This document shows positions 25,378-50,570 of a stretch of 64,000 nt of DNA, piece by piece; the first letter of the stretch is position 1, and the number at the start of each line of letters is the position of its first letter. The position numbers were made by a program, and so were the translations under genes. This DNA comes from Isoptericola sp. BMS4 (GTDB taxonomy: Bacteria > Actinomycetota > Actinomycetes > Actinomycetales > Cellulomonadaceae), in contig NZ_SIRP01000001.1 in NCBI RefSeq assembly GCF_011634835.1, positions 124,001 through 188,000 on the forward strand, given 5' to 3'. The notes below the pieces were generated by a model. It was not told the DNA's origin and made no database searches. It saw nothing but the letters and a program-made list of their open reading frames with translations.

Positions 25378-26051
25378 GGGACGACGGCGCCGAGGTCTTC
25401 GCCTACACGGACATCACCTGGCAGGTGGCACCGCCGCCGGTCCGGTACCCGGTCCCCGCCCGGCACGTCCCCGGCCTGGAGGTGGGCGACGAGCTGACCA
25501 TCGGCCTGCCCGGCCGCTACTACATCGACGGCCAGGTGCTCGCCCGCGGCGACCGGGAGACCATCACCCTGCCCCGCGAGACCGAGCCCCGGGAGTCCCT
25601 CCACGTGACGTCGCCCCTGCTGTGGTGGCTGCACAAGGGCTACCCCGAGCGGGGCCTGACCATGCAGCAGTGGCCGGTCGACTACACGTGGGTCTACCGC
25701 GACGCCGCGGGCCAGGACGAGGGGGCCCCGGAGGCCGACGCCGAGGACCGGCCGGCCGGCGACGGGTCGTGGCTCACGAAGGTCCAGCGCACCCTCGACG
25801 AGCCGCCCGCGCGGCGGCCCCGGCCCGCGCGGGAGGTGACGGGCCTGACCGGCCGACGCGTCCGGCTCCAGCACGCCCCCAGCGAGTGGTCGTGGTGGTA
25901 CGCCGTGAGCGAGCCCGTCGATGTCGCCGGGGACATCAGCGTCAACCTGCTCCCGCCGGCGATCTGGTGGATCACCCAGTTCACGTACCACGGCGAGACG
26001 CAGGACACCATCGAGACCCTGCCGATCCACCGCCTCTTCGTCTACGACTGA
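25374..26051 (+). CDS. Unrecognised soluble protein of the T4SS-like cluster
   Basis: This 225-residue protein has no signal or membrane helix. It is rich in Trp and Pro, with SPLLWWLHKGYPERGLTMQQWPVDYTWVYRD in the middle and SEWSWWYAVSEPVDVAGDISVNLLPPAIWWITQFTYHGETQDTIETLPIHRLFVYD at the C-terminus. I do not recognise a family. The 4-bp overlap with the hydrolase gene makes it part of the same operon. It may be a cytoplasmic assembly factor or an effector-like partner (inference). Confidence 0.7.
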   Translation: MRDDGAEVFAYTDITWQVAPPPVRYPVPARHVPGLEVGDELTIGLPGRYYIDGQVLARGDRETITLPRETEPRESLHVTSPLLWWLHKGYPERGLTMQQWPVDYTWVYRDAAGQDEGAPEADAEDRPAGDGSWLTKVQRTLDEPPARRPRPAREVTGLTGRRVRLQHAPSEWSWWYAVSEPVDVAGDISVNLLPPAIWWITQFTYHGETQDTIETLPIHRLFVYD

Positions 26052-27945: not shown

Positions 27946-29472
27946 GTGACCGACCGTGCCCCCGTGCTCGACGCCGTCGTCGACCTGGACGTCCCCGGTC
28001 CCACGATCAGCCGCCACGTGTACGGGCACTTCGCCGAGCACCTCGGGCGCTGCGTCTACGAGGGCTTCTGGGTGGGCGAGGACTCCGACATCCCGAACGT
28101 CGGCGGCATCCGCACCGACGTCGTCGAGGCCCTGCGCGAGCTGAGCATCCCCAACCTGCGCTGGCCCGGCGGCTGCTTCGCCGACACCTACCACTGGCGC
28201 GACGGCGTCGGTCCGCGCGACGAGCGGCCCCGCATCGCCAACACCCACTGGGGCGACGTCGTCGAGGACAACTCCTTCGGCACCCACGAGTTCATGGCGC
28301 TGTGCGAGCTGCTCGGCACCGCCCCGTACGTGTCCGCGAACGTCGGCTCCGGATCGGTGCAGGAGACCGCCGACTGGGTGGAGTACCTGACCCGCGGCGA
28401 CGACGCCCCCATGGCGCGCCTGCGCCGCGAGCACGGCCGGGAGGAGCCCTGGAGCATCGCCCTGTTCGGCATCGGCAACGAGCCGTGGGGCTGCGGCGGC
28501 AACCTGCGCGCCGACCAGTTCGCGTCGCTCGCCCGGCAGCACGCCACCTACGCGCGCGACCACGGCGACAACCGGCTGGTGCGCATCGCCGCCGGCGCGT
28601 CGGACGACGACTACGCCTGGACCGAGACGCTCATGCAGCAGATCGCGAGCCTCGGCGACGCGAACCCCCGCGACCTGTTCCAGATGATCTCGTTCCACTT
28701 CTACACGTTCGCCGGCACGTGGGGCGACAAGGGCTCCGCGACCGAGTTCACGCGCGACGAGTACTGGGCCACGATGCGCAAGGCCCTCGACGTGCGGCGC
28801 ATCCTCGCCGGGCACTCCGCCGTCATGGACGCCTACGACCCGCAGGCGAAGCTCGGGCTCGCCCTCGACGAGTGGGGCACCTGGTGGAACGTCGAGCCCG
28901 GCACGAACCCGGGGTTCCTGTACCAGCAGAACGCGCTGCGCGACGCCCTCGTGGCCTCCGTCCACTTCGACGCCTTCCACGACCACGCCCGGCGCCTGCG
29001 CCTGGCGAACATCGCCCAGACCGTCAACGTGCTGCAGTCCATGCTGCTCACCGACGGCGCGCGCATGATCCGGACCCCCACGTTCCACGCCTTCGCGATG
29101 AGCGCCGGCCACCACGACGCCACCGCCCTGCCCGTGCGTGACGTCGCCGACCGCGCCCGCCACGACGTCGGCGGCACCGCGGTCCCCTCGGTCTCGGCGT
29201 CCGCGTCCACGAAGGACGGCGCGGTCCTGGTCTCGCTGACCAACCTCGACCCCGACGGCCCGGCGACCGTGCGCATCGACCTGCGGGGGCGCGCCGTCGG
29301 CTCGCCCGTCGCGACCGTCCTCACCGCCGACGACCCCGCCGCCCACAACACGTTCGACGAGCCGGACGCCGTCGCGCCCCGCCCGCTGGACGGCGTCCGC
29401 GTCGACGACGGCGTGCTCACGGCCGAGCTGCCGCCCGCCGCCTTCGCGACCGTCCGCCTCCCCCTGGCCTGA
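27946..29472 (+). CDS. abfA: GH51 alpha-L-arabinofuranosidase
   Basis: This 508-residue cytoplasmic enzyme starts DRAPVLDAVVDLDVPGPTISRHVYGHFAEHLGRCVYEGFWVGEDS, typical of GH51. FGIGNEPWGCGGNL holds acid/base Glu179 and LALDEWGTWW nucleophile Glu309. An all-beta C-terminal domain (about 390-508) follows. GTG 27946 follows AAAGGAG by 7 nt. It is monocistronic, bounded by hairpins on both sides. It removes terminal arabinofuranose from arabinan, arabinoxylan or arabinogalactan oligosaccharides, which complements the galactan enzymes at 34-40 kb. Confidence 0.96.
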   Translation: MTDRAPVLDAVVDLDVPGPTISRHVYGHFAEHLGRCVYEGFWVGEDSDIPNVGGIRTDVVEALRELSIPNLRWPGGCFADTYHWRDGVGPRDERPRIANTHWGDVVEDNSFGTHEFMALCELLGTAPYVSANVGSGSVQETADWVEYLTRGDDAPMARLRREHGREEPWSIALFGIGNEPWGCGGNLRADQFASLARQHATYARDHGDNRLVRIAAGASDDDYAWTETLMQQIASLGDANPRDLFQMISFHFYTFAGTWGDKGSATEFTRDEYWATMRKALDVRRILAGHSAVMDAYDPQAKLGLALDEWGTWWNVEPGTNPGFLYQQNALRDALVASVHFDAFHDHARRLRLANIAQTVNVLQSMLLTDGARMIRTPTFHAFAMSAGHHDATALPVRDVADRARHDVGGTAVPSVSASASTKDGAVLVSLTNLDPDGPATVRIDLRGRAVGSPVATVLTADDPAAHNTFDEPDAVAPRPLDGVRVDDGVLTAELPPAAFATVRLPLA

Positions 29473-29486
29473 CCGCCGAGCCCGGT

Positions 29487-29547
29487 ATCGAGCGTCTCTG
29501 TTCGTCAGGTTTCGCGCCCGGATTCCGGACGAGCAGAGACGCTCGAT
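29487..29547. terminator. Long hairpin A (shared-stem family), bidirectional
   Basis: A 61-bp hairpin whose outer arms read ATCGAGCGTCTCTG and CAGAGACGCTCGAT, with further paired bases inward (TCGTC/GACGA). It starts 14 nt after the GH51 stop. It also contains the stop codon and last 13 sense codons of the convergent PepSY gene. The same stem occurs at 34365-34421 and 39640-39698. Confidence 0.8.
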
Positions 29548-30989
29548 CGGCCGCTCTGGGAGGCGGCGACGGCGCCCAGGACGACGTCGAGCACGACGAA
29601 CCCGGCGAGGGTCCACCCGACGAGCGGCAGCGCCCAGCCGACGAGGCAGGCGACGGCGAGCACGGCGGCGATGCCCCACCACGGGGCGCCGCGCAGGACG
29701 CCGCGGCGCGGCGGGCTCCCCGCGAGCGTGCGCGGGGACCGGGTCGGGCGCCGTCGCCACCACATCAGGTAGCCGAGCACCACCATGGTGGCGATCGTCC
29801 CGGCCACGAGGAACAGCACGACCTGGTTCGCCAGGCCGAACAGGGATCCCATGTGCAGGTCGATGCCCCAGCGGGTCAGCTTCGCGGGCATCGGGAACTC
29901 GTCGAAGTCGGTCCGGTCCACGACCTGCATGGTCGTGCCGTCGATCGCGACGGCGTCCACCTCGGTGGGGTAGCTGCGCTGGATCTCCTGCACCACCCAG
30001 GCGGTCCCCGGCTCGGCCGGGGGCCTGATCTCGACCAGGCCCGTGTCGACGTTGTACCGCTGCCCGATCGCCAGCACGGCGTCGAAGGTGGCCGGGTTCG
30101 CCGCACCGGGGGGTTCCGCGGCCGTCCCGCCGTGGCCGGCGTGCTCGCCCGACGGCGCCGCGCCGCCGTCGCCGAGGCTCGTGCTCACCGCCGGCGTCTC
30201 CCACGACAGGGCCGACCGCAGGTCGCCGACCCGCCCGCCGGCGAGCTGGGACCAGGTGATCCCCGTGGCGGAGAGGAACAGCGCGCCGAGCAGCACCCAT
30301 ACCCCCAGGGATGTGTGCCACGAGAACAGCCGCCGGTACCCCCTGGCACGCAGGGAGGGGCGCACCATCTCGGCCTTGCGGCGGGTCCGCCGCACCCGGA
30401 CGATCCACAGGCCGAGACCCGCGAGCGCGACGACGCCGAGCCACGACGCCGCGAGCTCGCTGTAGAACCGTCCGACGTCACCGAGGTGCAGCGACCGGTG
30501 CAGTTGGTCGACCCAGGTGCGCAGCGGCAGGGCGCCGCTGGTGCCGTAGACGGTGAGGTCGCCGCGGACCTCGCCGGTCCCCGGGTCGACGAAGACCGCT
30601 CGCGACTCGCTGGACCCCAGCCCCTCCTCGGCGAACATCACACGGGTCGTGTCGCCCGGCTCGGGGGCCGGGCGCACGGCCGACAGCGTCACGTCGTCGC
30701 CGCCGACGGACGCCTCGGCGATGTCGATCTGCTCGGCGAGGCTCAGGGTCGTCGAGGTGGCCGGGACGTGCAGCTCGTGGTCGTAGACCACCTGCTCGAC
30801 GGCCGGGGTGATCGCGTAGAGCGCGCCGCTGGTCGCGGCCACGAGGATGAACGGGCCGACGAGGACGCCGGCGTAGAAGTGCAGCCGCAGCAGCAGGGCG
30901 CCGAACCACCCGCGGGTGCGGCGCGGCGCGGGCGGTGGCGCGTGCTCCGTGGGCGGGCGGATGTCGGGCGTGGTGGACGTCGTCGTCAT
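29505..30989 (-). CDS. PepSY-associated TM protein (PiuB-like)
   Basis: This 494-residue protein has an N-terminal helix (LLLRLHFYAGVLVGPFILVAATSGALYAI) and a first extracytoplasmic PepSY region. Further helices include VVALAGLGLWIVRV and LGVWVLLGALFLSATGITW. A second PepSY region contains VDTGLVEIRPPAEPGTAWVVQEIQRSYPTEVDAVAIDG, followed by three C-terminal helices. PiuB-type proteins are linked to iron uptake or ferric reduction. It ends the copper/DyP operon, 10 bp after the peroxidase stop. Its last 13 sense codons lie inside hairpin A, which may explain a variable C-terminus. Confidence 0.9.
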   Translation of the reverse strand: MTTTSTTPDIRPPTEHAPPPAPRRTRGWFGALLLRLHFYAGVLVGPFILVAATSGALYAITPAVEQVVYDHELHVPATSTTLSLAEQIDIAEASVGGDDVTLSAVRPAPEPGDTTRVMFAEEGLGSSESRAVFVDPGTGEVRGDLTVYGTSGALPLRTWVDQLHRSLHLGDVGRFYSELAASWLGVVALAGLGLWIVRVRRTRRKAEMVRPSLRARGYRRLFSWHTSLGVWVLLGALFLSATGITWSQLAGGRVGDLRSALSWETPAVSTSLGDGGAAPSGEHAGHGGTAAEPPGAANPATFDAVLAIGQRYNVDTGLVEIRPPAEPGTAWVVQEIQRSYPTEVDAVAIDGTTMQVVDRTDFDEFPMPAKLTRWGIDLHMGSLFGLANQVVLFLVAGTIATMVVLGYLMWWRRRPTRSPRTLAGSPPRRGVLRGAPWWGIAAVLAVACLVGWALPLVGWTLAGFVVLDVVLGAVAASQSGRSSVSARPESGRET

Positions 30990-30999
30990 GATCTCGCCT

Positions 31000-32226
31000 T
31001 CAGGTCAGGAGGGTCTCGCCGATGAAGCCGTCCTCGTCGCACCCGGGTGGGACGGCGAAGACGGCGGAGCCGATCGGGACCGTCCACCGGTTGAGGAGGT
31101 CCAGCTCGTCGAGCCGCCGCTGGATGGGCACGAACTGCCGCTCGACGTCGGCCTGGTAGGACACGAAGATCAGGCCGGCGTCGGAGACCTGCGTCCCGGA
31201 CCCGCCGTCGTCGTAGTTGTAGGCGCGCCGGAAGATCCGCTCGTCGGGGTTCTCGCTGCGGGCGCGCCGCAGGTGCGAGAACTCGGGGATGACCGGGAAC
31301 CCGATCTCCGTCGTGGCCTCGAAGTCCGGCTCGTCGTGCTCGTCGGTGCCGGTGAGCGGCGCGCCGTCGGACAGGTACCGGCCCACGGACTGCTCCCGCC
31401 CGCTGCGGTCGAGCTCGTCCCAGGTGTCGAGGGTCATGCGGATGCGACGCACGACGACGCCCGTGCCGCCGGCGAGCCACCCGTCACCGGCCCACACGAG
31501 CCGGTCGAAGTCCGCCGTCCCCGGGACCGGGTTGGCGGTGCCGTCGACCTGCCCGAAGAGGTTGCGCATCGTGGTACCGGGCCGCACGGTGCCGTGCGCG
31601 CGCCGGAACCCCTGCTGGGTCCACCGCACGGTGGCGAAGCTGCGGGCGTCCTTGAGGAGCATCCGCGAGGCGTGCGCGACGGTCAGCGGGTCGTCGGCGG
31701 CCACCTGCAGCAGCAGGTCGCCGTCGGACAGCTCCGGCACGAGCCGGTCCACCGTGAACGACGGCAGCGCCTTCAACCACCCCGGGGCCTCGCCCCGGGC
31801 CCGGGCGACGAACCGGGGTCCGACGCCGAACGTCACGGTGAGGCGCGACGGCGCGACGGCGAGCTCGGGCTCGGAGTCGGCCAGCGCGGGCTCACCGCGG
31901 GTGAGCCGCGCGGCGTCGTCGGTGAGGATGCGCATCATGCGGCGCAGCGCCTCGCGGTCGGTGCCGTCGCGCAGGTCGAGGGCCACGAAGAGGCCGTGCG
32001 CCTGCGCGTCGGTGTCGATGCCGGCCTGGTGGGCGCCGTGGAACGGCACGGTCTGGGCGCCGTGCAGGGGCGCCGCGTCGACCGCGGGGGCGTCGGTGCT
32101 GGTGAGGGCCTGGTCCGCGCCGACCGCGGCGGCCGCGCCGACGCCGGCGACAGCTCCCCCGAGGAGGAACTGCCGCCGGGTCGACCCGGTGCGGTCGGTG
32201 CGGGCGCCCTTGCCGGGCGCGGGCAT
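31000..32226 (-). CDS. Tat-exported DyP-type heme peroxidase
   Basis: This 408-residue protein has a Tat signal (GSTRRQFLLGGAVAGVGAAAAVGA; SRRxFL-like). DyP features: DLRDGTDREALRRMM, VTFGVGPRFVARA, MRNLFGQVDGTANP containing the catalytic Asp of the GxxDG motif (here GQVDG), and VVVRRIRMTLDTWD. The proximal His lies in GFPVIPEFSHLRRA. The ATG shares a base with the PCuAC stop (TGATG). EfeB and DtpA belong to this family. In Streptomyces, DtpA acts with a PCuAC-type protein in copper-dependent maturation of a cuproenzyme, and the adjacency here suggests similar work. Confidence 0.95.
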   Translation of the reverse strand: MPAPGKGARTDRTGSTRRQFLLGGAVAGVGAAAAVGADQALTSTDAPAVDAAPLHGAQTVPFHGAHQAGIDTDAQAHGLFVALDLRDGTDREALRRMMRILTDDAARLTRGEPALADSEPELAVAPSRLTVTFGVGPRFVARARGEAPGWLKALPSFTVDRLVPELSDGDLLLQVAADDPLTVAHASRMLLKDARSFATVRWTQQGFRRAHGTVRPGTTMRNLFGQVDGTANPVPGTADFDRLVWAGDGWLAGGTGVVVRRIRMTLDTWDELDRSGREQSVGRYLSDGAPLTGTDEHDEPDFEATTEIGFPVIPEFSHLRRARSENPDERIFRRAYNYDDGGSGTQVSDAGLIFVSYQADVERQFVPIQRRLDELDLLNRWTVPIGSAVFAVPPGCDEDGFIGETLLT

Positions 32227-32816
32227 CAGCCCTCCATGTCCATGTCGTCCGAGTCCCCCGTGCCGTCGGCGTCCTCGTGGTCGTGGTCGGAGCCACCGCC
32301 GTAGCTCTCGTTCGCGCCGGAGTAGTCCTTGACCGGTGCGGTGAGGTCCGCGGTGGAACCGTCCGCGTACGTGAGGGTGACGGTCACCTCCTCGCCGGCC
32401 TCGATCGGGCCGGTGAGGTCCATCAGCATGAGGTGGTTGCCGCCCGGCTCGAGCACGAGCGTCCCGCCGGCCGGGACGACGAGGCCGCCCTCGACCTCGC
32501 GCATGGTCATCTCGCCGGTCTCGTTCTCGACCGTCTCGTGCTGCTCGACCATCGCCGCGGCCTCGGTGCTCACGGACGTGATCGTGACGTCCTCGGCCCC
32601 GGTGTTGGTGAGCTCGCCGAACGCGGCCGACATGCCGGAGTCGGCCGCCTTGACCCAGGCGTCGGAGACGGTCACCTCCTCGGCGGCGGGGGCGTCCGTG
32701 TCGTCGGCTGCCGCGCCGTCCGAGGCGCACCCGGCGAGGCCGAGCGCGGCGGCGGCGAGGACGACGCCGAGGCGTGAGGTCGTCCGAGCGGTGGAGTGGG
32801 TGGTGCGGTGGGTCAC
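32226..32816 (-). CDS. PCu(A)C copper chaperone lipoprotein
   Basis: This 196-residue protein has lipobox LGLAGCAS. Its PCuAC domain holds the Cu(I) ligands of the H/M-x10-M-x21-H-x-M type: MVEQHETVENETGEMTMREV ... GGNHLMLMDL. An unusual His/Asp/Met tail (DHDHEDADGTGDSDDMDMEG) may add copper sites. I place the start at GTG 32816 because GAAAGG lies 7 nt upstream. An in-frame GTG at 32831 overlaps the CopC-like stop but lacks a ribosome site. It delivers copper to extracytoplasmic targets. Confidence 0.93.
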   Translation of the reverse strand: MTHRTTHSTARTTSRLGVVLAAAALGLAGCASDGAAADDTDAPAAEEVTVSDAWVKAADSGMSAAFGELTNTGAEDVTITSVSTEAAAMVEQHETVENETGEMTMREVEGGLVVPAGGTLVLEPGGNHLMLMDLTGPIEAGEEVTVTLTYADGSTADLTAPVKDYSGANESYGGGSDHDHEDADGTGDSDDMDMEG

Positions 32817-32827
32817 GGAGGTGCCTT

Positions 32828-33493
32828 TCACGGTGTTCCCGACGTGCCCGAGCCGTGCTCGGTGTCGTCGGCGCCGGCCGCGTTCCTGCGGCGGCGGAGG
32901 ATCTGGACGAGTGCGAGCAGGCCGAGCGCCACGACGGCGCCCCCTGCTGCGACGAGGACGACCCGCAGGGTCCCCCCGTCCTCGGTCGCGGTCCGGCTCC
33001 GTGCGCTGTCCGTGGCCGACGTCTCGGCGTCCGCCCCCGCGGTCTCCTGGCCGGGATCCTCAGCGGGGTCCTCGTCGGCAGCCGCCTCGCCGGCGTCCGC
33101 GGGAGTGTCGCCTGCTCCGTCGTCCCCGCCCTCGACGGAGAACGGCACGACGCCCGAGATCGGGTGGCCGTCGGACGACACCACGCGCCAGCGCACCTCG
33201 TAGGAGCCGCCGGGCAGCTCCTGCAGGGGCACCGTCACGACGGGACCGTCGATCGACACCTCGCCCTCGGACCGGTCAGTGCCGGACTCGTCGGCGACGA
33301 CGACAGCCGCGCCCATGTCGAGGATGTCGTCGGAGAACTCCATCGACACCTCCGACGGGGGCGCGGCCAGGACGGCGTCGTGAGCCGGGTCGCTCGAGAT
33401 CAGCTGGTCGTGGGCGGACGCCGGCGGCGCCGTCGCGAGGATCGCGACGACGGCCGTCAGCAGTCCCGCCACGAGGGGACGGGAACGAGACAT
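32828..33493 (-). CDS. CopC-domain copper-binding protein with C-terminal TM helix
   Basis: This 221-residue protein has signal SRSRPLVAGLLTAVVAILATAPPASA, directly followed by HDQLISSDPAHDAVLAAPP, placing the amino-terminal His used by CopC for copper. WRVVSSDGHPISGVVPFSV is the second conserved block. A 60-residue acidic linker leads to a C-terminal helix (VVLVAAGGAVVALGLLALVQIL) and a basic tail. ATG 33493 has AGGAGAGG upstream. An open frame extends to 33712 but lacks CopC features. It lacks the CopD membrane domain found in YcnJ/CopCD fusions. Confidence 0.92.
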   Translation of the reverse strand: MSRSRPLVAGLLTAVVAILATAPPASAHDQLISSDPAHDAVLAAPPSEVSMEFSDDILDMGAAVVVADESGTDRSEGEVSIDGPVVTVPLQELPGGSYEVRWRVVSSDGHPISGVVPFSVEGGDDGAGDTPADAGEAAADEDPAEDPGQETAGADAETSATDSARSRTATEDGGTLRVVLVAAGGAVVALGLLALVQILRRRRNAAGADDTEHGSGTSGTP

Positions 33494-33626
33494 AGGGGGA
33501 CCTCTCCTGGGACGCCGCGGAAGGGCGTCGGAGCATGCGTCGACGGGACGCACGTGCGGCGTCCCGCTCGCCCGCGGAGCGCGGGCACGGATCAGCGCGC
33601 GGGCACGGCGGCCCGCGGCACGGAGC

Positions 33627-34259
33627 TCAGACTGCGTGCGGCGCGGGAGGTCCTCGGCGCCACAGGGGCGCGAGCTGAGGGCCGGGCGGCGGCGGGCGGA
33701 AGTCCGCGGCACGCACGCCCGGGAGCCGGGGGACGACGAACGTCGGGACCCGGTCCGCGACCTGCCACCGGCGCACGAGCCACGCGGCAGCGCGCCGGCC
33801 GAGCTCGCGCAGCCGCGCCAGCATCGTCTCGCCGCGGTGCAGCAGGACGACGGTGATCACCGCGGCGACGCCGTGCCAGGCCCACATCGTCGGGTCCGTG
33901 TGCATGGCGTGGGCGGGGGCCTGGGCAGCGGGCAGCGTCACCGGCGCGTGCAGGCCGTGGCCGTGCGGGCCGCCGGAGGCGGGCGCCGCGCCCGACGGCG
34001 TCCCGAGGACGAACAGGGTGTGGAAGAAGAGTTGGCTCACGACGACGGAGACCGACAGCCGCGGCACCGAGAGCCGCCGTCCGGCCAGGGCCGTGCAGGC
34101 CGGCAGCGAGAGCGCCAGCGGGACGACGATCCCGAGCATGCCGGGCACCTGACCACCGCCGGCGACGTGGGACAGCAGCGCGACGGCCGTCGACGCCATC
34201 GCCGCGAGCGCACCGCGCACGAACCGGGCGGGCCCGGCCCGCTCGTCGCGTGCGGTCAT
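33627..34259 (-). CDS. Four-helix membrane protein of copper operon
   Basis: This 210-residue protein has helices at about 12-30, 38-58, 68-88 and 128-142. A His-rich extracytoplasmic loop (GGPHGHGLHAPVTLPAAQAPAHAMHTDP) sits between the third and fourth and could bind copper. The Arg-rich C-terminus is cytoplasmic. The gene lies 133 bp upstream of the CopC-like gene and is probably the first gene of the operon. Similar proteins of unknown function recur beside CopC/PCuAC genes in Actinobacteria; this recollection is not checked here. Confidence 0.78.
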   Translation of the reverse strand: MTARDERAGPARFVRGALAAMASTAVALLSHVAGGGQVPGMLGIVVPLALSLPACTALAGRRLSVPRLSVSVVVSQLFFHTLFVLGTPSGAAPASGGPHGHGLHAPVTLPAAQAPAHAMHTDPTMWAWHGVAAVITVVLLHRGETMLARLRELGRRAAAWLVRRWQVADRVPTFVVPRLPGVRAADFRPPPPGPQLAPLWRRGPPAPHAV

Positions 34260-34364
34260 GGTGCGGCTCTCCGGAGGTCGCTGGGGCCGGCGTCGGGACC
34301 GGCCACCGTGTCCCGGCCGAGCCTAGTGCGTGGCACGAGACGACCGGAACGTACGCGCCCGGAT

Positions 34365-34421
34365 CGAGCGTCTCCGGTCGTCAGGATCCAGGCGCCGGAT
34401 CCTGACGACCAGAGACGCTCG
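34365..34421. terminator. Long hairpin B (shared-stem family)
   Basis: Two 25-bp arms (34365-34389 and 34397-34421) pair with a single mismatch around the loop AGGCGCC. The outer stem begins CGAGCGTCTC and the inner stem ends GTCAGGATCC. It lies 12 nt after the stop of the GH30 gene. Confidence 0.85.
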
Positions 34422-34433
34422 TCCAGGCGGTGG

Positions 34434-37400
34434 TCAGCCCTCGAGAGGCTGCCAGGGGCCGTGTTCGACGCCCGGCTCCTGGTTCCGGGTCCACCACTGC
34501 GCCTCGTAGCGCTCCCCGTCGTGGACGACGACGTCGCCCGCGGTGAAGATGCGCGACGGTGTCCACACGTCCGTCCCGTCGACGTCGCGGACCAGCTCCT
34601 GCCAGGGGCCGTGCACGGACGCGCCGGGCGCCTGCTTCCGGGACGTCCACGACGCCCGGAAGTGACCGCCGTCGTGGTAGGCCTCGTCGCCCTTGCGGTA
34701 CCGGGTGGCGGCGTCCCACACCGGCGACGGCTCGCCGGGCACCTTTGCCAGCACCTCGATCTCGCTGACCACCAGATGGGTGTCCGGGTGCGCCGTCATC
34801 ACGACGCGGACGGCATCGGCCCGCACCTCCGCGGGCACGCGGGCCACGAGGGTCTCGCCGTCGGTCTCCGCCTCGCCGACGGTCTGCCACGCGCCGTCCA
34901 CCCGCGCCTCGACGGCGACGCCGGTCGCCCAGCTGCGGTGCGACCCGTCGCGCCAGAAGTGCGTGACGACGCCGGTCACGTCACGCTCGGTGGGCAGGGT
35001 CACGGTGAGCGTGTCCTGCGGGTTCTTGTCGCCGGAGCGCCAGTTGGACCAGCCCTTGTCGCCGGTGTCGCCGTTGATCACCCGCTCGGCCGGGTAGCCG
35101 GGCTCGGTGTACGTCGCGGCGGCGGTGGTGCCGTCCGCGAGCGCCGCGTTCGCCTCCCCGGGCGGCGTGACGAGCACCCGCGCGGTGGCGGGCAGCGTGC
35201 CGCCCGCGCCGTCGTCCGCGGCCCCGGCCACCTGGACGACGCCGAGGTCGTCGAAGGCGCCCGCCGGGGCGTCGTCCCAGGTCACCGGGCGCTCGACCTC
35301 GGCCCCGCCGGCGGCGACGGCGGTCACCGTGGCGGGCAGCTCGGGCACGCCGCCGGCGTACGCCTCGGCACGCGCGGGCAGGGTCGCGGTGAGGGTGTCG
35401 ACGACGACGGTCGCGGTCGCCTCGACGGCACCGCCGCCGGGGACGGCGACCGTGCCGGTCACCTCGACCGTGCCCGCGTCGGCCCACGCGTCGTCTGCGG
35501 GCACGACCCAGGTGACGGGCAGCTCGCCGCGCGGCCCGTCGGGGTAGACGGGCGTGACCGTCGTGGGCAGCTCGGGCGTGGTGCCGGGGACGGCGAAGAC
35601 GTCGACGGGCTCGGTGGCGAGCACCGTCTCGTCGACGATCGCCCACCGCTGGTTGGCGCCGGAGGTCGCCCGGTACGTGCCGACCGGGGAGCCGTCGGCC
35701 CACGCCTCGCCGCCGACCTCCAGCAGCGTCCGCGACGACGCGTTGACCAGGGTGTACGTGCCGTCGCCGGTGGTGGACAGGATCCACCGCGCCTCCGGCG
35801 GGGCGTCGCCGTCCGCGGCCACCAGCACGGCGGAGGTGTCCGCGGTGACGGCGAGCCGCTCCCCCGTGCCCACGTTGGTCACGGCGTAGCGGGTGCGGTG
35901 CGTCCCGGAGCCCTCGGGGGCGCCCAGGTCGGTGAGCGTCCACAGCTGGTCGGCCGCGGCGGGGTCGTCGGTCTCGATGCGCACGCCCCCGTCGCCGTCG
36001 GGCGCCAGCGAGCGGTCGGACTGCACGCCGTCCAGGCGGAACACGTGGCCGTCCTGCGCCAGCGGGGCGTCCTCGGCGACGCCGGAGACGCCGTCGACGA
36101 CGAAGGTGGTCACCGACTCGGCGGGCACGGTGAGGGTGGCGGAGGCACCGGAGACGGCGACCGGGTCGCCCTCGACGAGGTAGCCGTCGGCGCTGGTCAC
36201 GACGGGCGTGACGGTGGCGCCGGCCGTGTCGGCGAAGCCGGACAGGTCGAGGGTGACGTCGCGCGAGGCGGTGTCGTCGTTGACGTGCACGACGGCGGCC
36301 CCGTCGCCCGCCGCGGACACGGCGGCGGTGCTGCTCGCGTCGTCGACCCCGATCAGCCGGTCGCCGGGCGCGATGTAGTGCGTGAAGTTCTGGGTGATCC
36401 AGTACTTCGTGTTGGTGTAGATGGGGCAGGTCTCCAGCGTGTCCTGCGCGGTGCAGGAGAACGGGATCTGGATCTCGCCCCAGTTGCCGCCCTCGGGGCT
36501 CTCGCCGCCGGGCGCCATGTTGTCGTAGTCCTCGACGGGCTGCCAGAACACCCAGGCGGAGGGCTCGAGCTCGCGCAGGTCGTCGACGATGTGCTGCGCG
36601 CTGCCGAGGCCCGACTCCATGGACTCGAAGTCCTGCCCGGTGCTGGACCAGGAGCCGCCGACCTCGCTCATCCACAGGGGCTTGTCCTCGCCCTTGGCGA
36701 TGTCGCGCACGGTGGTGCGCTGGCCGGTGCCGTAGGTGTGCACGTTGAGCTGGGACACCAGGTCGCGCACCCCGTCGGAGTACGCGTTCCAGTTGGTGGC
36801 GAACCGGCCCGGGTTGGTCTCGTCCATCGCGGAGACGACGGCGTCCGTCGTCGAGCCGGCGAGCTCGGCCGCGAGCGCGGGGATCACCTGCTGCTGCAGC
36901 TCCGGGCCGATGTGGGCGCCCTCCTGGCGGCCGCCGGTCGGGTTGCCTTCGTCCCCGAGCTGGGTGCCCCAGTAGTCGGTGTTGGGCTCGTTGAACGGGT
37001 CGATCGTGTCCACGTCGATGCCGTGCGCGTCCTCGAGGCGCTCGGTGACACCGACCATGTAGCGGGCGAAGTCTTGGACGCTCTCGGCCTTGAGCTGGTC
37101 GGTGCCTGCGTCGAAGTTGCCCGAGACGTAGCCGGACTCCGTCATGAACCAGGGCGGGGAGTTGCTGAACGTCTCCCAGTGGGTGATGTCGTCCTTGATG
37201 CGGTCGACCCACCAGCGCTGGGTGGCGTCCGCGTCGTCGTCCCAGTGGTCGGGGTTCGCCGGGTCCCACCAGTCCACGTCGTCGCGGGTGGTGCCCTCGG
37301 GGGCTTTCCACCAGCCGTCGACGGCGCCCCCGGCGCGCAGGTAGTCCGGCACGTCGGGGGCGTTGCCGCCGCCGACGTTGTAGCGGGCGATGTTGAGGTT

Positions 37401-37700
37401 CAGGCCCTCGTCGCCGAACACCATGTCCGCCAGGCGGTTCCGGATCTCGTCCGGGTAGTCGCCGGTGGCGTTGGCGAACCAGACGAGGCTGGTCCCCCAG
37501 CCCTCGAACGGCTCGCCCGCGTACGACGGGTCCGGGCGGACGGTGACGGTCCCGCCGTCGTCCGCCTCCGCGGCGACCGCCTGGGGGGACGCCGTCGCCG
37601 GGACCAGACCGACGGCGAGCAGCGCCGCCGCCGTGCCGGTGACGACGCCGGCGCGTCGTCGTGCGTTCCTTCGTCGTGCGTTCTCGTCGGTCGGGCTCAT
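34434..37700 (-). CDS. Secreted multidomain GH30 galactanase-type enzyme
   Basis: This 1088-residue protein has a signal peptide to about residue 44. The GH30 domain (about 50-480) starts PFEGWGTSLVWFANATGDYPDEIRNRLADMVF and resembles the GH30 endo-beta-1,6-galactanase branch. Glu238 (PFNEPN) is acid/base and Glu346 (MSEVGG) nucleophile. Then follow a ricin-type beta-trefoil (about 545-685, ends NQRWAIV), two bacterial Ig-like modules (about 700-860), an F5/8C-like domain (about 870-1000) and two C-terminal CBM5/12-type modules, the second with YEAQWWTRNQEPG and GPWQ. Two hairpins separate it from its neighbours. It should cut galactan side chains of arabinogalactan. Confidence 0.9.
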   Translation of the reverse strand: MSPTDENARRRNARRRAGVVTGTAAALLAVGLVPATASPQAVAAEADDGGTVTVRPDPSYAGEPFEGWGTSLVWFANATGDYPDEIRNRLADMVFGDEGLNLNIARYNVGGGNAPDVPDYLRAGGAVDGWWKAPEGTTRDDVDWWDPANPDHWDDDADATQRWWVDRIKDDITHWETFSNSPPWFMTESGYVSGNFDAGTDQLKAESVQDFARYMVGVTERLEDAHGIDVDTIDPFNEPNTDYWGTQLGDEGNPTGGRQEGAHIGPELQQQVIPALAAELAGSTTDAVVSAMDETNPGRFATNWNAYSDGVRDLVSQLNVHTYGTGQRTTVRDIAKGEDKPLWMSEVGGSWSSTGQDFESMESGLGSAQHIVDDLRELEPSAWVFWQPVEDYDNMAPGGESPEGGNWGEIQIPFSCTAQDTLETCPIYTNTKYWITQNFTHYIAPGDRLIGVDDASSTAAVSAAGDGAAVVHVNDDTASRDVTLDLSGFADTAGATVTPVVTSADGYLVEGDPVAVSGASATLTVPAESVTTFVVDGVSGVAEDAPLAQDGHVFRLDGVQSDRSLAPDGDGGVRIETDDPAAADQLWTLTDLGAPEGSGTHRTRYAVTNVGTGERLAVTADTSAVLVAADGDAPPEARWILSTTGDGTYTLVNASSRTLLEVGGEAWADGSPVGTYRATSGANQRWAIVDETVLATEPVDVFAVPGTTPELPTTVTPVYPDGPRGELPVTWVVPADDAWADAGTVEVTGTVAVPGGGAVEATATVVVDTLTATLPARAEAYAGGVPELPATVTAVAAGGAEVERPVTWDDAPAGAFDDLGVVQVAGAADDGAGGTLPATARVLVTPPGEANAALADGTTAAATYTEPGYPAERVINGDTGDKGWSNWRSGDKNPQDTLTVTLPTERDVTGVVTHFWRDGSHRSWATGVAVEARVDGAWQTVGEAETDGETLVARVPAEVRADAVRVVMTAHPDTHLVVSEIEVLAKVPGEPSPVWDAATRYRKGDEAYHDGGHFRASWTSRKQAPGASVHGPWQELVRDVDGTDVWTPSRIFTAGDVVVHDGERYEAQWWTRNQEPGVEHGPWQPLEG

Positions 37701-37744
37701 CGGTGAGCACTCCTCTCGCGTCGGTGCGATGGATCGGGGACCGC

Positions 37745-37802
37745 TGTGGGTACGGAGATGGCGAAGCTCCGGCGCCGGAACCTCGCCATCTCCGTACCCA
37801 CA
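37745..37802. terminator. Long hairpin D (different stem, same architecture)
   Basis: The arms TGTGGGTACGGAGATGGCGA (37745-37764) and its exact complement (37783-37802) enclose an 18-nt apex that is itself partly palindromic (CTCCGGCGCCGGAA). It lies 10 nt after the GH35 stop. The stem is unrelated to hairpins A-C. Confidence 0.85.
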
Positions 37803-37812
37803 ACGCTCGGGG

Positions 37813-39591
37813 TCAGGGCTCGGTGGGTCCGAGGTCGGGGGTGGCGACGAACCGGGCGCGGGCGGACGCGGCGCCCCGCAGCTCGAGCAGCACGAGGTCG
37901 TTCGCGCCGTCGCGCAGCAGCGGGCCGGGCACGTAGAGGGTCGCCGTCGGGCCCTCGCTGGAGTAGCGGCCGAGCAGCTCGCCGTTGACCCACGCGAGCC
38001 CCCGGGTCCAGCCGTCCAGGCGCAGGAACCGGTCGGTCCCCGCGGCGGCGTCGAACGTGCCGTGGTGGAACGACGGCCCGGCGAGGGGCGCGTCCGGGGC
38101 GGTCACCGGCCGCAGGGCGCCGTCGAGCAGCGCGGGCGCCTCGGCGACGCGCAGCGGCAGCGCCTCCCAGCCGGTGAGCTCGCGCCGCGCGGTGCGCACC
38201 GGGCCGAGCAGGCCCTTCGGCTCGCCGATGCGCGGGCCGTAGTTGACCCGGCCGCGGTCCTCGACGAGCAGCGTCAGCTCGCCCGCGCGGGGCGGCAGCG
38301 GCAACGCCGCGACGTGGCCCGTGCGGTCGAGCACGCCGACGGGCTCGCCGTCGAGGAACACGTGCGCCCGGTCGCGGACCTCGGCGACCTGCAGCACGGC
38401 GTCGTCGTCCTCCACCCGGGTGCGGTACAGCGCGAACCCGGACCACTGGCCGAGGGCGTCCATCGTCGGCGGCCGCTGCGCCGTCCGCCCGGCACCGGCC
38501 AGGGCGTCGACGACGTCGGCCAGCGCCACACGCCGGCCGAGGACGACGTCGCCCTCGGGCGCGAGCCCGGGCTCGGCGGGCAGCTCGTCGGGCACGGGGG
38601 CGTGCTTGGCGATCACCGCCCGCAGGGCGTGGAACTTTGCGGTGGGGGCGCCGTGCTCGGACAGGGGCGCGTCGTAGTCGTACGACGTGGTGATGGGCAG
38701 GTAGGTGCCCTTGTCGTTGGCGCCGCTGGTCAGCCCCGGGTTGGTGCCGCCGTGGAACATGTACAGGTTGACCGAGGCGCCGGCCGCGAGCAGCTCGTCG
38801 AGCTCGGCGGCCGTGTCCTCGGGCGCGGTGACGTGGTGGATCTGTCCCCAGGAGTCGAACCAGCCGTTCCAGAACTCGGTGCACATCAGCGGGCCGGTGG
38901 GCTGGTGACGCCGCAGGATCGAGAGACGCTCGGTGGTGCGGGAGCCGAAGTTCGCCGTCTTGTGGAGCTCCGGCAGGCCGCCGCGGCCGAGGTGCTCGTC
39001 GTCGGCCTGGTCGCTCGTGAACAGCGGCACGTCGATGCCGTGGGACCGGGTCAGACGCACGAGCTCGCGCAGGTAGCGGACCCGCTCGTCGTCGGGCACG
39101 CCCGGGTAGGCGCCGTACTCGTTCTCCACCTGCACCATGAGGACCGGGCCGCCGCGCGTGGTCTGCCGCGGCGCGACGACGGGCAGCAGGTGGGCGTAGT
39201 AGTCGCCGATGGCCCGCAGGAAGGCGGGATCGTGGCGCCGCACCCCCGCGCTCCCGTCCGCGAACAGCCAGGCCGGCAGCCCGCCGCCGTCCCACTCCGC
39301 GCAGATGTACGGACCGGGCCGCACGATCGCGTGCAGGCCCTCCGCGGCGACCAGGTCGAGGAAGCGGCCCAGGTCGCGGCGGCCCGTGAGGTCGAACTCG
39401 TCCGGGGTGGGCGCGTGGAAGTTCCACGCCACGTACGTCTCGATCGTGTTCAGGCCCATGAGGCGGGCGGCGCGGATCCGGTCGGCCCACTGGTCGGGGT
39501 GGACGCGGAAGTAGTGCAGCGCACCGCTGATCACCTGGAACGGGCGGCCGTCGAGCAGGAAGTCCCGCTCGCCGATCTCGAACGTGGGCAT
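37813..39591 (-). CDS. GH35 beta-galactosidase
   Basis: This 592-residue enzyme is a canonical GH35: ISGALHYFRVHPDQWADRIRAARLMGLNTIETYVAWNFHAP, RPGPYICAEW, VQVENEYGAY with acid/base Glu158, and CTEFWNGWFDSWG with nucleophile Glu239. The C-terminal third has the two jelly-roll domains usual for bacterial GH35. No signal peptide, so it works on imported galacto-oligosaccharides. It lies between hairpins C and D, downstream of the sugar importer. It probably removes terminal beta-galactose from fragments made by the secreted GH30. Confidence 0.96.
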   Translation of the reverse strand: MPTFEIGERDFLLDGRPFQVISGALHYFRVHPDQWADRIRAARLMGLNTIETYVAWNFHAPTPDEFDLTGRRDLGRFLDLVAAEGLHAIVRPGPYICAEWDGGGLPAWLFADGSAGVRRHDPAFLRAIGDYYAHLLPVVAPRQTTRGGPVLMVQVENEYGAYPGVPDDERVRYLRELVRLTRSHGIDVPLFTSDQADDEHLGRGGLPELHKTANFGSRTTERLSILRRHQPTGPLMCTEFWNGWFDSWGQIHHVTAPEDTAAELDELLAAGASVNLYMFHGGTNPGLTSGANDKGTYLPITTSYDYDAPLSEHGAPTAKFHALRAVIAKHAPVPDELPAEPGLAPEGDVVLGRRVALADVVDALAGAGRTAQRPPTMDALGQWSGFALYRTRVEDDDAVLQVAEVRDRAHVFLDGEPVGVLDRTGHVAALPLPPRAGELTLLVEDRGRVNYGPRIGEPKGLLGPVRTARRELTGWEALPLRVAEAPALLDGALRPVTAPDAPLAGPSFHHGTFDAAAGTDRFLRLDGWTRGLAWVNGELLGRYSSEGPTATLYVPGPLLRDGANDLVLLELRGAASARARFVATPDLGPTEP

Positions 39592-39639
39592 GAGTCGTGG
39601 AGCCTCTCGGGGAAGGGTGGTGCGGACGAGCCGGACCCG

Positions 39640-39698
39640 CCGAGCGTCTCTGTTCGTCAGGCTTCACGCGCGGAAACCCGACGAACAGAGACGCTCGG
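39640..39698. terminator. Long hairpin C (shared-stem family)
   Basis: CCGAGCGTCTCTGTTCGTC (39640-39658) pairs with GACGAACAGAGACGCTCGG (39680-39698) without mismatch. It lies 9 nt after the binding-protein stop and 48 bp before the GH35 start, inside what would otherwise be one operon. Confidence 0.85.
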
Positions 39699-39707
39699 TC
39701 GGTGGGG

Positions 39708-41051
39708 CTACTGGTTGACGGCGAAGCCCTGGTCGTTGCCGAACGTCGCGGACTGCTCCTGCCACGCGGCGAGGCCGTCCGTCAGCGTCGTGCCGGAGAC
39801 GTACGCCTGCCCGACCGTGTCGTTGAAGATGGAGTTCGCGTACACCTGGAAGGGCAGGTACTGCCAGCCCTCCGCGACCTGGGACGCCGAGTCGGCGAGC
39901 ACCTCGTTGACCTTCTGCCCGCCGAAGTACTCGAACTCCTGCTCGCGGAACTCCGGGTCCTCGAGCTCGGCCGTCGTCGCGGGGAACGCGCCCTCGTCGA
40001 CGCGGGTCGCGATGCCGTCGCCGACGGTCGCGTACTCCAGGAAGGCCCACGCCAGGTCGGCGTTCTCGCTGGCCGCGGGGACGGCGAGGGAGCTGCCGCC
40101 GTTCTCGGCGGTCGCCTGGCCGCCGTCCTCCCACTGCGGCATCGGGGCGACGGCCCAGTCGCCGGACGCGTCGGGGACCGAGGACTCCAGGTTGCCGCGC
40201 ATCCACGCGCCGATGACGAGCGAGGCGATCGACCCGTCGGACAGCCCCTGGTACCACTCGTCGCTCCACGACCCGACGGGGGCCACGAGCTCGTCGTCGA
40301 TCATGGTCTGCCACGTGTCGGCGAACTGCTGGGACCCGGCGTCGGTGAAGTCGATCGTCACGTCCGTGCCGTCCACCTGGTACGGGCGCCCGCCGGCCTG
40401 CCAGATGAGGCTCGTCGTGAAGCCGGCGTCGCCGACGTCGTTGGTGAGGTACGCCTTCGGGTCGGCCTCGTGGAGCTTGCGCGCCGCCTCGACGTACTCG
40501 TCCCACGTGGTGGGGACCTCGATGTCGTACTTGTCGAAGACCCGCTTGTTGTAGAAGAGGGCCATCGGGCCCGAGTCGGTGGGCAGCGCGTGGACGCCGC
40601 CACCCTGGGTGACGGCGCCCCAGGGGCCGGGCGTGAAGGTGCCGTCGAGCTGGTCGGCGCCGTAGGCGGTGAGGTCGGTGAGGGCGTCGGACAGCGCGAA
40701 CTGCGGCAGGGCGTAGAACTCGATCTGCGCGACGTCGGGCACCCCGTCGCCGGCGGCGATCGCGTTCTGCAGGGCGGTGTACTGGTCGTTGCCCGTCCCG
40801 ACGTTCTCGAGGTTGACGGTGACGTTCGGGTGCTCGGCCTCGAAGTCCTTCGCGACGGACTCGAGCGTCGGGTCCCACGCCCAGACGGTGATCTCGCCGC
40901 CCTCCTCGAGCGCGGACGCGGCGTCGGCGGTGGCCTCGCCGGAGTCGGCGGGGGCGTCGGCGCCGCCGCTGCAGGCGGCGAGCGGGACGGCGAGAGCGCC
41001 GGCCGTGAGCGTCGCGGTGAGCGCGCGGCGCCAGGGGGTGGAGCGTGCCAT
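39708..41051 (-). CDS. CUT1 sugar ABC transporter binding lipoprotein (SBP_bac_1)
   Basis: This 447-residue protein has signal RALTATLTAGALAVPLAACSGG, with the lipobox Cys near residue 28. Family-1 features are ITVWAWDPTLESVAKDFEAEHPNVTV, YTALQNAIAAGDGVPDVAQIEFYALPQFA and PTDSGPMALFYNKRVFDKY. ATG 41051 has GAGAGGA 7 nt upstream; a GTG at 41066 is part of that site. It captures a mono- or oligosaccharide for the two permeases upstream, probably galactose- or arabinose-containing given the enzymes in the locus. Confidence 0.95.
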   Translation of the reverse strand: MARSTPWRRALTATLTAGALAVPLAACSGGADAPADSGEATADAASALEEGGEITVWAWDPTLESVAKDFEAEHPNVTVNLENVGTGNDQYTALQNAIAAGDGVPDVAQIEFYALPQFALSDALTDLTAYGADQLDGTFTPGPWGAVTQGGGVHALPTDSGPMALFYNKRVFDKYDIEVPTTWDEYVEAARKLHEADPKAYLTNDVGDAGFTTSLIWQAGGRPYQVDGTDVTIDFTDAGSQQFADTWQTMIDDELVAPVGSWSDEWYQGLSDGSIASLVIGAWMRGNLESSVPDASGDWAVAPMPQWEDGGQATAENGGSSLAVPAASENADLAWAFLEYATVGDGIATRVDEGAFPATTAELEDPEFREQEFEYFGGQKVNEVLADSASQVAEGWQYLPFQVYANSIFNDTVGQAYVSGTTLTDGLAAWQEQSATFGNDQGFAVNQ

Positions 41052-41106
41052 GAGGGGTCCTCTCACTTCTTCGTCAGACGGATGGGGTCGAGCGGACGGG
41101 GTGGGG

Positions 41107-50145: not shown

Positions 50146-50474
50146 CCGGCACCGGTGCGACCGCCGGAGCGCTCGTGGCGCGGATCCGCGCCCTGGCCGA
50201 CGAGATCCACCCCCGCACCTATCCGGTGGCCGTCCGCGTCCGTCTTCGCGGGACCGGCCCGGAGCTGGCGTCGTGCGAGATCTGGACCGGGGACGCCGAC
50301 GCCCTGTGGGTCCGCCGGGCCGACCTTTCCGCCGCCGTCGGGCGCACCCTGCTCGACCTGGAGCGCGCCCTCGCGGCCGCGGGCTTCGCCTACGGCCGCA
50401 CCGAGGACGGCCGCGCGAGGTACCGCTACGACGAGGGCACCTACACGCTCGATCTCGCCCGGCCGGGTCGCTGA
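50142..50474 (+). CDS. Unrecognised 110-residue protein, partner of preceding gene
   Basis: This 110-residue protein has an N-terminal helix (AGALVARIRALADEIHPRTYPVAVRVRLRG), a central segment WTGDADALWVRRADLSAAVGRTLLDLERALAAAGFAYGR, and a charged C-terminus. No signal, membrane helix or known motif. The coupled pair is followed by hairpin E. The function is unknown. Confidence 0.75.
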   Translation: MTGTGATAGALVARIRALADEIHPRTYPVAVRVRLRGTGPELASCEIWTGDADALWVRRADLSAAVGRTLLDLERALAAAGFAYGRTEDGRARYRYDEGTYTLDLARPGR

Positions 50475-50503: not shown

Positions 50504-50570
50504 GAGGTCGTACCGCCGGTCGTCCGGTCGTACTCCGCGCGTACGACCGGACGACCTGCGGTACGACCTC
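50504..50570. terminator. Long hairpin E between convergent genes
   Basis: Two 30-bp arms (50504-50533 and 50541-50570) pair with one mismatch around a 7-nt loop TCCGCGC. The outer arm begins GAGGTCGTACCGC. It starts 30 nt after the small-gene stop and overlaps the stop codon of the ROK repressor gene, so it can end transcription from both sides. Confidence 0.87.

Follow-up and report, generated by a model that had tools for sequence, protein, structure and literature searches.

Dispersed palindromic hairpins in Isoptericola and the AbiEi/REase-like genes that they bracket

Three long intergenic hairpins lie in a 64,000-nucleotide (nt) stretch of the genome of Isoptericola sp. BMS4 (RefSeq assembly GCF_011634835.1, contig NZ_SIRP01000001.1, positions 124,001 to 188,000), referred to below as the window. 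Here, we report that they are copies of a dispersed 57-nt palindrome, family D, and that this palindrome and others of the same build bracket genes for AbiEi/restriction endonuclease (REase)-like proteins. The repeat family, the pairing of its stems and the bracketing association are well supported. The hairpins are probably dispersed palindromes of the repetitive extragenic palindrome (REP) kind, forming a two-part system with a dedicated AbiEi/REase-like gene that is bracketed by 'its' palindrome, a reading to which we assign a probability of roughly 0.6. G000 denotes this Isoptericola genome, in which the window is C1:124001-188000, and all other G numbers denote genomes of relatives.

Results

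The first-pass annotation of this DNA had suggested either a spreading terminator or a REP-like element, and had proposed a scan of the genome and its relatives for the inverted repeat. With at most one mismatch, the pattern GAGCGTCTCNGNTCGTC has 15 matches in G000 and its reversed control 0; all but one of the 15 fall in nine hairpins. A covariance model built from these nine returns ten strong copies (63-80 bits), those nine plus a tenth, over 4.3 Mb and in different gene surroundings; a second tier of matches, none above 45 bits, contains among others hairpins of another family, A. In a search of 150 genomes of the GTDB family, matches at an expectation value (E) <= 0.01 occur in 31 genomes (own included), among them 16 of the 16 same-genus genomes. 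The exact two-arm pattern was found in 32 stretches of the named genome collection, all from Isoptericola and all with a 55-nt span. The REP-like alternative is thus supported by copies throughout the genome and in relatives.

For placement and sequence comparison we gathered 83 D copies, which are a selection among the matches listed, 73 of them from 15 relatives; the search model was trained on G000 and favours the G000 outer block. According to a home-made gene caller that uses a GC-position score and is error-prone, 36 copies lie between convergent genes, 29 between co-directional genes, 12 between divergent genes and 6 inside open reading frames (ORFs). The nearest stop codon is at -2 to 28 nt (median 12 nt) for 57 of the 65 convergent or co-directional copies. 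Some D copies sit between the same divergent genes in several species, and Pfam matched 17 of the 20 proteins neighbouring divergent copies at E <= 1e-4. As a separate observation, D copies are clustered in one part of the chromosome, with median distances to a conserved NAD-synthase reference gene of 138, 207, 466 and 401 kb in G000, G058, G110 and G116, against an expected ~0.9-1.1 Mb (p < 0.0001 to 0.026 for uniform copies); the clustering is weaker against random reference places (p 0.01-0.17).

In G021, G058, G110, G116 and G042, two D copies ~1.1 kb apart enclose a single gene for a protein of ~330 amino acids, at a locus whose neighbours are a DAHP synthase gene (Pfam) and a sigma-70 family gene. 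A D-like pair surrounds the gene in G009, from another genus. In G149 (L223) the gene is missing from the locus and a single D copy is present, the product expected if the two copies had recombined. The bracketed nuclease-like genes of G000 lie outside the window: the homologue at C1:3939637 stands between two A hairpins, of which the upstream one has decayed; a more distant one at C1:3850969 stands between two hairpins of a third family, B, and further paralogues have yet other hairpins on both sides. Also in G000, at C1:71441-72392 (L297-L299), an AbiEi/REase-like gene is split into three frames and still bracketed by two GACGTAGCG hairpins.

By Pfam, the encoded protein consists of an N-terminal AbiEi_4 winged helix and a C-terminus with a weak REase_MTES_1575/Vsr-like match. 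AbiEi_4 matches all six seed proteins at E <= 0.1, as does the PADLOC AbiEi model (6/6), and the B-linked protein C1:3850969 matches MTES_1575 at E 2e-8 and DUF559 at E 4e-6. A PDB sequence search with the protein gave no match at E <= 1, and a plasmid and phage search with one such protein gave no match at the limits used. AbiEi/DUF559-like proteins without a known job occur in 49 of 197 Actinomycete genomes.

The bracketing is far more frequent than around other genes. In the genus, hairpins within 260 nt were counted for 34 of 39 loci (only returned loci were examined; three on truncated contigs and two duplicate pieces were dropped) and for a control of 282 other genes of 700-1300 nt from sampled stretches. 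Hairpins flank the gene on both sides in 16/34 genus genes vs 7/282 controls, and on at least one side in 28/34 vs 58/282. Without the six search-seed genes the values are 11/28 for both sides (Fisher p = 9e-9) and 22/28 for at least one side (p = 1e-9). The two brackets of a gene also resemble each other: arm similarity is >=0.79 in 14 of the 16 doubly bracketed genus genes, with random pairs at a mean of 0.48 and a 95% point of 0.75.

Outside the genus, where distance or size limits were loosened and near and far counts took the place of matched control genes, 16/25 genes in other genera of the family are flanked by hairpins on both sides and 22/25 on at least one (near vs far counts, 43 vs 6), and 12 of the 16 double brackets reach an arm similarity >= 0.79. 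Other families of the class have both brackets in 7/29 genes and at least one in 19/29 (26 vs 8), with arm similarity >= 0.875 in 6 of the 7 double brackets. Across 66 loci, protein identity and arm similarity are correlated (r = 0.467, reached in 0 of 2000 permutations).

Hairpins similar to the brackets recur elsewhere in the sample of the same genome for A (7), B (4), the G110 D bracket (3) and G110 gene 1013985 (1), and three other bracketed genes of G000 have weak similars, 1-2 each at 0.72-0.79. Local spread of family copies from the bracketed gene was considered and rejected, as the signal is not significant for A or B and mixed for D.

The first-pass annotation also held that selection acts on pairing rather than on sequence alone. 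The five genomes with at least 5 copies have 59 in all; in these, the two arms of a copy share a departure at 54 stem positions, whereas 300 shuffles of the right arms gave 20.4 on average and at most 34. Pairing is therefore kept within copies, though imperfectly. Selection for pairing, or its mechanical upkeep, is thus supported, and the contrast with sequence is half right: the outer block hardly differs between species, and the inner block is made uniform inside each genome. As many as 40 of the 83 copies form 14 clusters in which both flanks match between species, once between genera, with one of the 14 clusters being two neighbouring sites. At such shared sites (two even-centre copies of the 83 and one cluster member, G149, L223, were excluded; 33 of 37 ortholog pairs had paralogues), the outer 12 bp have an identity of 0.96 both between orthologs and among copies of one genome, whereas the inner 11 bp have an identity of 0.56 between orthologs vs 0.80 within a genome. 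In 31 of 33 comparisons the inner stem resembles paralogues in its own genome more than it does the ortholog; for the nine-base loop this holds in only 16 of 33, which is no effect. Stems at old shared sites thus change together within a genome and loops drift separately, which implies either a trans-acting factor that works on stems or a copying process confined to them. Whole-element gene conversion or recent transposition is unlikely as the sole cause of the likeness within genomes, because the loops are not homogenised.

Family D is one of several in this genome. In a 464-kb sample (the window and 20 sampled stretches) there are 22 hairpins with a net stem score >=22, of which 11 are co-directional, 9 convergent, 1 in an ORF and 1 called divergent (L071:7642, doubtful, as a + strand ORF ends 17 nt before it), and many of the 22 share stems within families other than D. 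Family A (CGAACATGTGGTTGGTCCGGGA) has 33+32 arm matches in G000 and one in 17 congeners, and family B (TGTGGGCGCGAGTTTGGCGCTAT) has 14+15 in G000 and none in 17 congeners, with reversed-pattern controls at 0 for both; the two patterns contain the inner block, so that relatives with another inner block are left uncounted. In G145, hairpins with the outer block of A and a different inner block surround that genome's own gene (L326). G000 has about 10 places for D, 16 for B and 37 for A, and in many A and B copies a variant seen in one arm recurs in the other. In G000, four syntenic gene ends, among them that of the NAD synthase gene, have an A or B hairpin that is mostly absent in congeners; in some congeners these ends carry a hairpin of another sequence.

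Further features of these elements were seen in passing. In many A copies a further, weaker outer repeat CGACCATG lies ~20 nt outside CGAACATG, and the element may exceed the hairpin. Stems of several other families hold an 8-10 bp motif twice, ~20-22 bp apart, giving four motif copies per palindrome (L170:17415, L169:536, L148:3991, L160:3858 and L153:15057), which is suggestive of binding sites two helical turns apart. A separate gene-end element of ~98 nt, with a variable outer stem and a strongly conserved inner part (about CCCGAAGTGGAGGGCGCGCAGCGCCCGTGAACGCGAC), occurs in several species (L072:8245-8349 in G000; L170:13958, L171:15198, L177:13924, L183:11384, L184:7575, L159:10536, L156:17160, L166:1070, L153:1179 and L296:1340); one copy of it had no match above the gathering score in Rfam.

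In the window itself (Table 1), reading the sequence bears out a near-identical long stem at all three D hairpins, each of which folds into one long stem; the outer stem is near-identical, and loops and inner stem bases differ, as had been described. None of 200 shuffles folds as well as hairpins 1-3. The motif GAGCGTCTC occurs 11 times in the window vs 2.1 expected from shuffling, and six of the 11 are the six arms of the three hairpins. The reported distance of 9-14 nt from the stop codon is exact. Pfam assigns the preceding genes to three different product types, in agreement with the claim that they are unrelated: an alpha-L-arabinofuranosidase (hairpin 1), a GH30-type glycosidase with lectin and F5/8 domains (hairpin 2) and an extracellular solute-binding protein (hairpin 3). 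Hairpin 1 also spans the stop codon and 3' end of a convergent PepSY_TM gene (Pfam) at 29505-30989 on the - strand; this 3' end lies inside the hairpin (29505-29547), as if the repeat had brought a new stop, and other D copies (L024, L200, L224 and L225) likewise overlap the called 3' end of a neighbour by ~30-45 nt. The window holds two more hairpins of the same architecture with other stems; that of TGTGGGTACGGAGATGGCG has two similar stems in the 464-kb sample (L068:1399 and L080:12853), and its exact pattern is single-copy in G000. Rfam gave only sub-threshold matches between positions 26000 and 52000 of the window, mostly to miRNA and snoRNA models, and none above the gathering score.

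Table 1 Long hairpins of the window, in window coordinates
Feature	Position	Stem	Score, model R1 (bits)	Fold energy (kcal/mol)	z	Placement
Family D hairpin 1	29487..29547	20-bp continuous outer stem, imperfect inner stem	77.1	-43.1	-7.8	14 nt past the stop codon of the + gene ending at 29472
Family D hairpin 2	34365..34421	25-bp stem with one mismatch	77.5	-55.0	-11.8	12 nt past the stop codon of the - gene 34434-37700
Family D hairpin 3	39640..39698	26-bp stem with two mismatches	80.3	-50.4	-9.9	9 nt past the stop codon of the - gene 39708-41066
Hairpin of the same architecture	37745..37802	other stem (TGTGGGTACGGAGATGGCG...)				10 nt past the stop codon of the - gene 37813-39591
Hairpin of the same architecture	50504..50570	other stem (GAGGTCGTACCGCCGG...)				between convergent genes ending at 50474 and 50569

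Discussion

What has to be explained is a set of dispersed palindrome families with maintained pairing and a bias to 3' ends, which share sites between species, change their stems in concert and bracket one gene family. We propose a system of two parts. The first would be the ~330-residue protein, with its AbiEi-type winged helix and Vsr/DUF559-like C-terminus, encoded between two copies of a palindrome; the second would be the further copies of the same palindrome elsewhere (about 10-37 places for the three families counted), mostly just past stop codons. Several such gene/palindrome pairs would coexist in a genome, each with a different stem sequence. Dimers of the protein may recognise the two arms, with the outer 12 bp as the constant contact. 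Such recognition is plausible because the palindrome bound by a studied AbiEi, that of Streptococcus agalactiae, has nearly this geometry: an 11-bp perfect outer repeat with a spacer of 27, extending to 23-bp arms around N3 (PMC3985639). The Vsr-type domain could nick or cleave the palindrome, which may be extruded as a cruciform. Repair of the break with another copy as template would account for the spread of copies and also for the homogenisation of stems within a genome. Copies would persist where harm is small, at 3' ends; there, the hairpin in the RNA may in addition mark transcripts or end them.

We infer that the protein acts on the hairpins and cuts, mobilises or homogenises them, and the same goes for any terminator role. 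Several points weigh against this proposal. The correlation between protein and arms could stem from shared descent alone, and 6/34 genus genes and 10/29 class-wide genes have no hairpin near. For the G000 genes 292927 and 1419636, no hairpin similar to the brackets was found in the 464-kb sample; the G058 D bracket has no similar hairpin in a 220-kb sample, with other D copies of G058 existing outside it. G094 has D copies and no protein match at E <= 1e-10, and G000 has D copies and no D-bracketed gene was found there, so that gene loss must be assumed. For A and B, no significant proximity of the copies to the gene bracketed by the family was seen, and no clean insertion footprint or target duplication was defined. 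Departures from the stem occur in one arm only at 97 positions and differ between the arms at 17. On the protein side, MTES_1575 is sub-threshold (best 34.4, cut-off 38.2), DUF559 is above its cut-off in the B-linked protein only and AbiEi_4 is under its cut-off in some members (for example 19.2 vs 25); the AlphaFold model, which drew on three sequences, is poor (predicted local distance difference test score, pLDDT, 52.6), and its best PDB match, the putative endonuclease 3hrl, is not significant (E 0.36).

The main rival is a co-evolving repressor with scattered binding sites: the palindromes would be the operator or regulon of an AbiEi-like repressor or nucleoid protein, sites would co-evolve with its specificity and nothing would be mobile. 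The binding by AbiEi of a palindrome with nearly this geometry in its own promoter (PMC3985639) speaks for such a regulon, as do the concerted change of stems, but not loops, at shared sites and the D copies between the same divergent genes in several species. We nevertheless regard it as unlikely, though not negligible. The 65 of 83 copies at 3' ends between convergent or co-directional genes are poorly placed for operators, A and B hairpins of G000 are mostly absent in congeners at the four syntenic gene ends, both arms of a copy change in step, something that a dimer site by itself would not call for, and brackets flank the gene on both sides. Concert of stems and not of loops at shared sites is unusual in itself, and demands an enzyme that cuts and copies, or else a binding protein in strict co-evolution with its sites.

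Somewhat less likely still, the hairpins would be terminators or stabilisers of mRNA 3' ends in a high-GC genome, homogenised by happenstance. The family D hairpins are GC-rich stem-loops shortly past stop codons with high stability as RNA, and in unbiased stretches long hairpins are enriched between convergent genes (20/43 vs 108/587 gene gaps). No U-tract follows the stem at family D hairpins; ordinary short hairpins are not enriched in T in G058 and G110 either, and only mildly so in G000, so that a missing U-tract does not exclude a terminator. On the sense strand, 58 co-directional long hairpins have 26 G-U vs 23 A-C mismatches (p = 0.78 in a test of low power), and nothing in this symmetry therefore points to sense RNA as the selected form. 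Together with the 12 of 83 copies called divergent, the lack of a U-tract and of a G-U excess leads us to reject the 'spreading terminator' of the first-pass annotation as the main identity, with the reservation that short hairpins are T-poor too, and terminators alone would leave the bracketing of one gene family unexplained. The TRIT terminators of Mycobacterium tuberculosis, from the RNIE paper, are reportedly a sequence-conserved hairpin family at gene 3' ends, and are not said to come with a bracketed gene. Termination as a side effect at 3' ends is possible.

It is improbable that some other transposase moves the repeats and that AbiEi/REase genes are frequent neighbours or passengers. 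One mobilising enzyme could serve several stem families of a genome, and to our knowledge no transposition activity has been reported for the AbiEi/REase-like protein family; different stem families, however, bracket different paralogues. A RAYT (REP-associated tyrosine transposase) or other Y1 enzyme (PF01797), sought in the own genome, was not found (0/1), with the control positive in 5 of 14 genomes. No unpaired GAGCGTCTCTG arm, the possible end of a larger transposon, was found in the sampled stretches, where 11 of 11 arms are paired; with this and 1 of 15 pattern matches outside the nine hairpins, we rejected miniature inverted-repeat transposable elements (MITEs) or ends of a larger transposon. 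Local duplication or chance likeness, which the position of the three hairpins within ~10 kb might suggest, is refuted by the ten strong copies over 4.3 Mb, the pattern control of 0, the genus-wide matches and the sites shared between species.

The closest known systems to the proposed two-part system are the REP/REPIN-RAYT 'REPtrons' (PMC2817692, PMC3733652, PMC3116915), which share with it short, species-specific extragenic palindromes in several families per genome, mostly near 3' ends between convergent or co-directional genes, together with repeat copies on either side of a dedicated gene, compensatory changes and a family that matches its own gene. The arrangement described here is that of a REPtron: a dedicated gene lies between copies of a palindrome whose other copies are scattered at 3' ends, and each family has its own gene. 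There are clear differences. REPs are defined as 20-40 bp palindromes with an unpaired GTAG or CGTC tag (PMC3733652), and are usually abundant, at >100 copies per genome (PMC2817692), whereas the Isoptericola hairpins are near-perfect stem-loops of 57-65 nt, paired to the outer end and with no GTAG at the ends, and their families stay below REP abundance. Furthermore, no Y1 tyrosine transposase was found in G000, the bracketed gene encodes an unrelated winged-helix and REase-like protein, and the hosts are Actinomycetes. CGTC-tagged REPs are likewise dispersed palindromes and apparently lack a dedicated transposase, but they are short, have an unpaired CGTC tag and are found mainly in Alphaproteobacteria, according to the main text of PMC3733652, in which the string 'actinobacter' does not occur.

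Among protein systems, AbiEi of type IV toxin-antitoxin (PMC3985639) shares the N-terminal AbiEi-type winged helix and an operator palindrome of a geometry near that of the D hairpin; the Isoptericola protein differs in its REase/DUF559-like C-terminus and in having palindromes at either side of its gene as well as in many other places. REase_MTES_1575 is described in PMC3710099 as a Vsr-type REase domain of actinobacterial proteins with a predicted role in genomic conflicts; there it sits in giant HEPN/helicase proteins, and the available text makes no link to dispersed palindromes. In searches of an open-access library, none of the papers listed links AbiEi, DUF559 or MTES_1575 proteins to dispersed palindromes in its title or the start of its abstract. 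There is a fair chance that the system is a class of its own.

A wider reading, which we hold tentatively and at slightly less than even odds, is that RAYT-less 'REPtrons' exist across Actinomycetes as a new class of selfish or domesticated mobile palindromes, with winged-helix/REase-fold proteins that would recognise and cut hairpin or cruciform DNA; nuclease-triggered copying would both spread the palindromes and rewrite old stems at conserved places, so that all sites of a genome track the changing specificity of one enzyme. It has long been puzzling that some REP-type repeats have no known enzyme, and the bracketing joins them to proteins without a known job. One purified protein and one synthetic palindrome would suffice to test both the repeats and the proteins.

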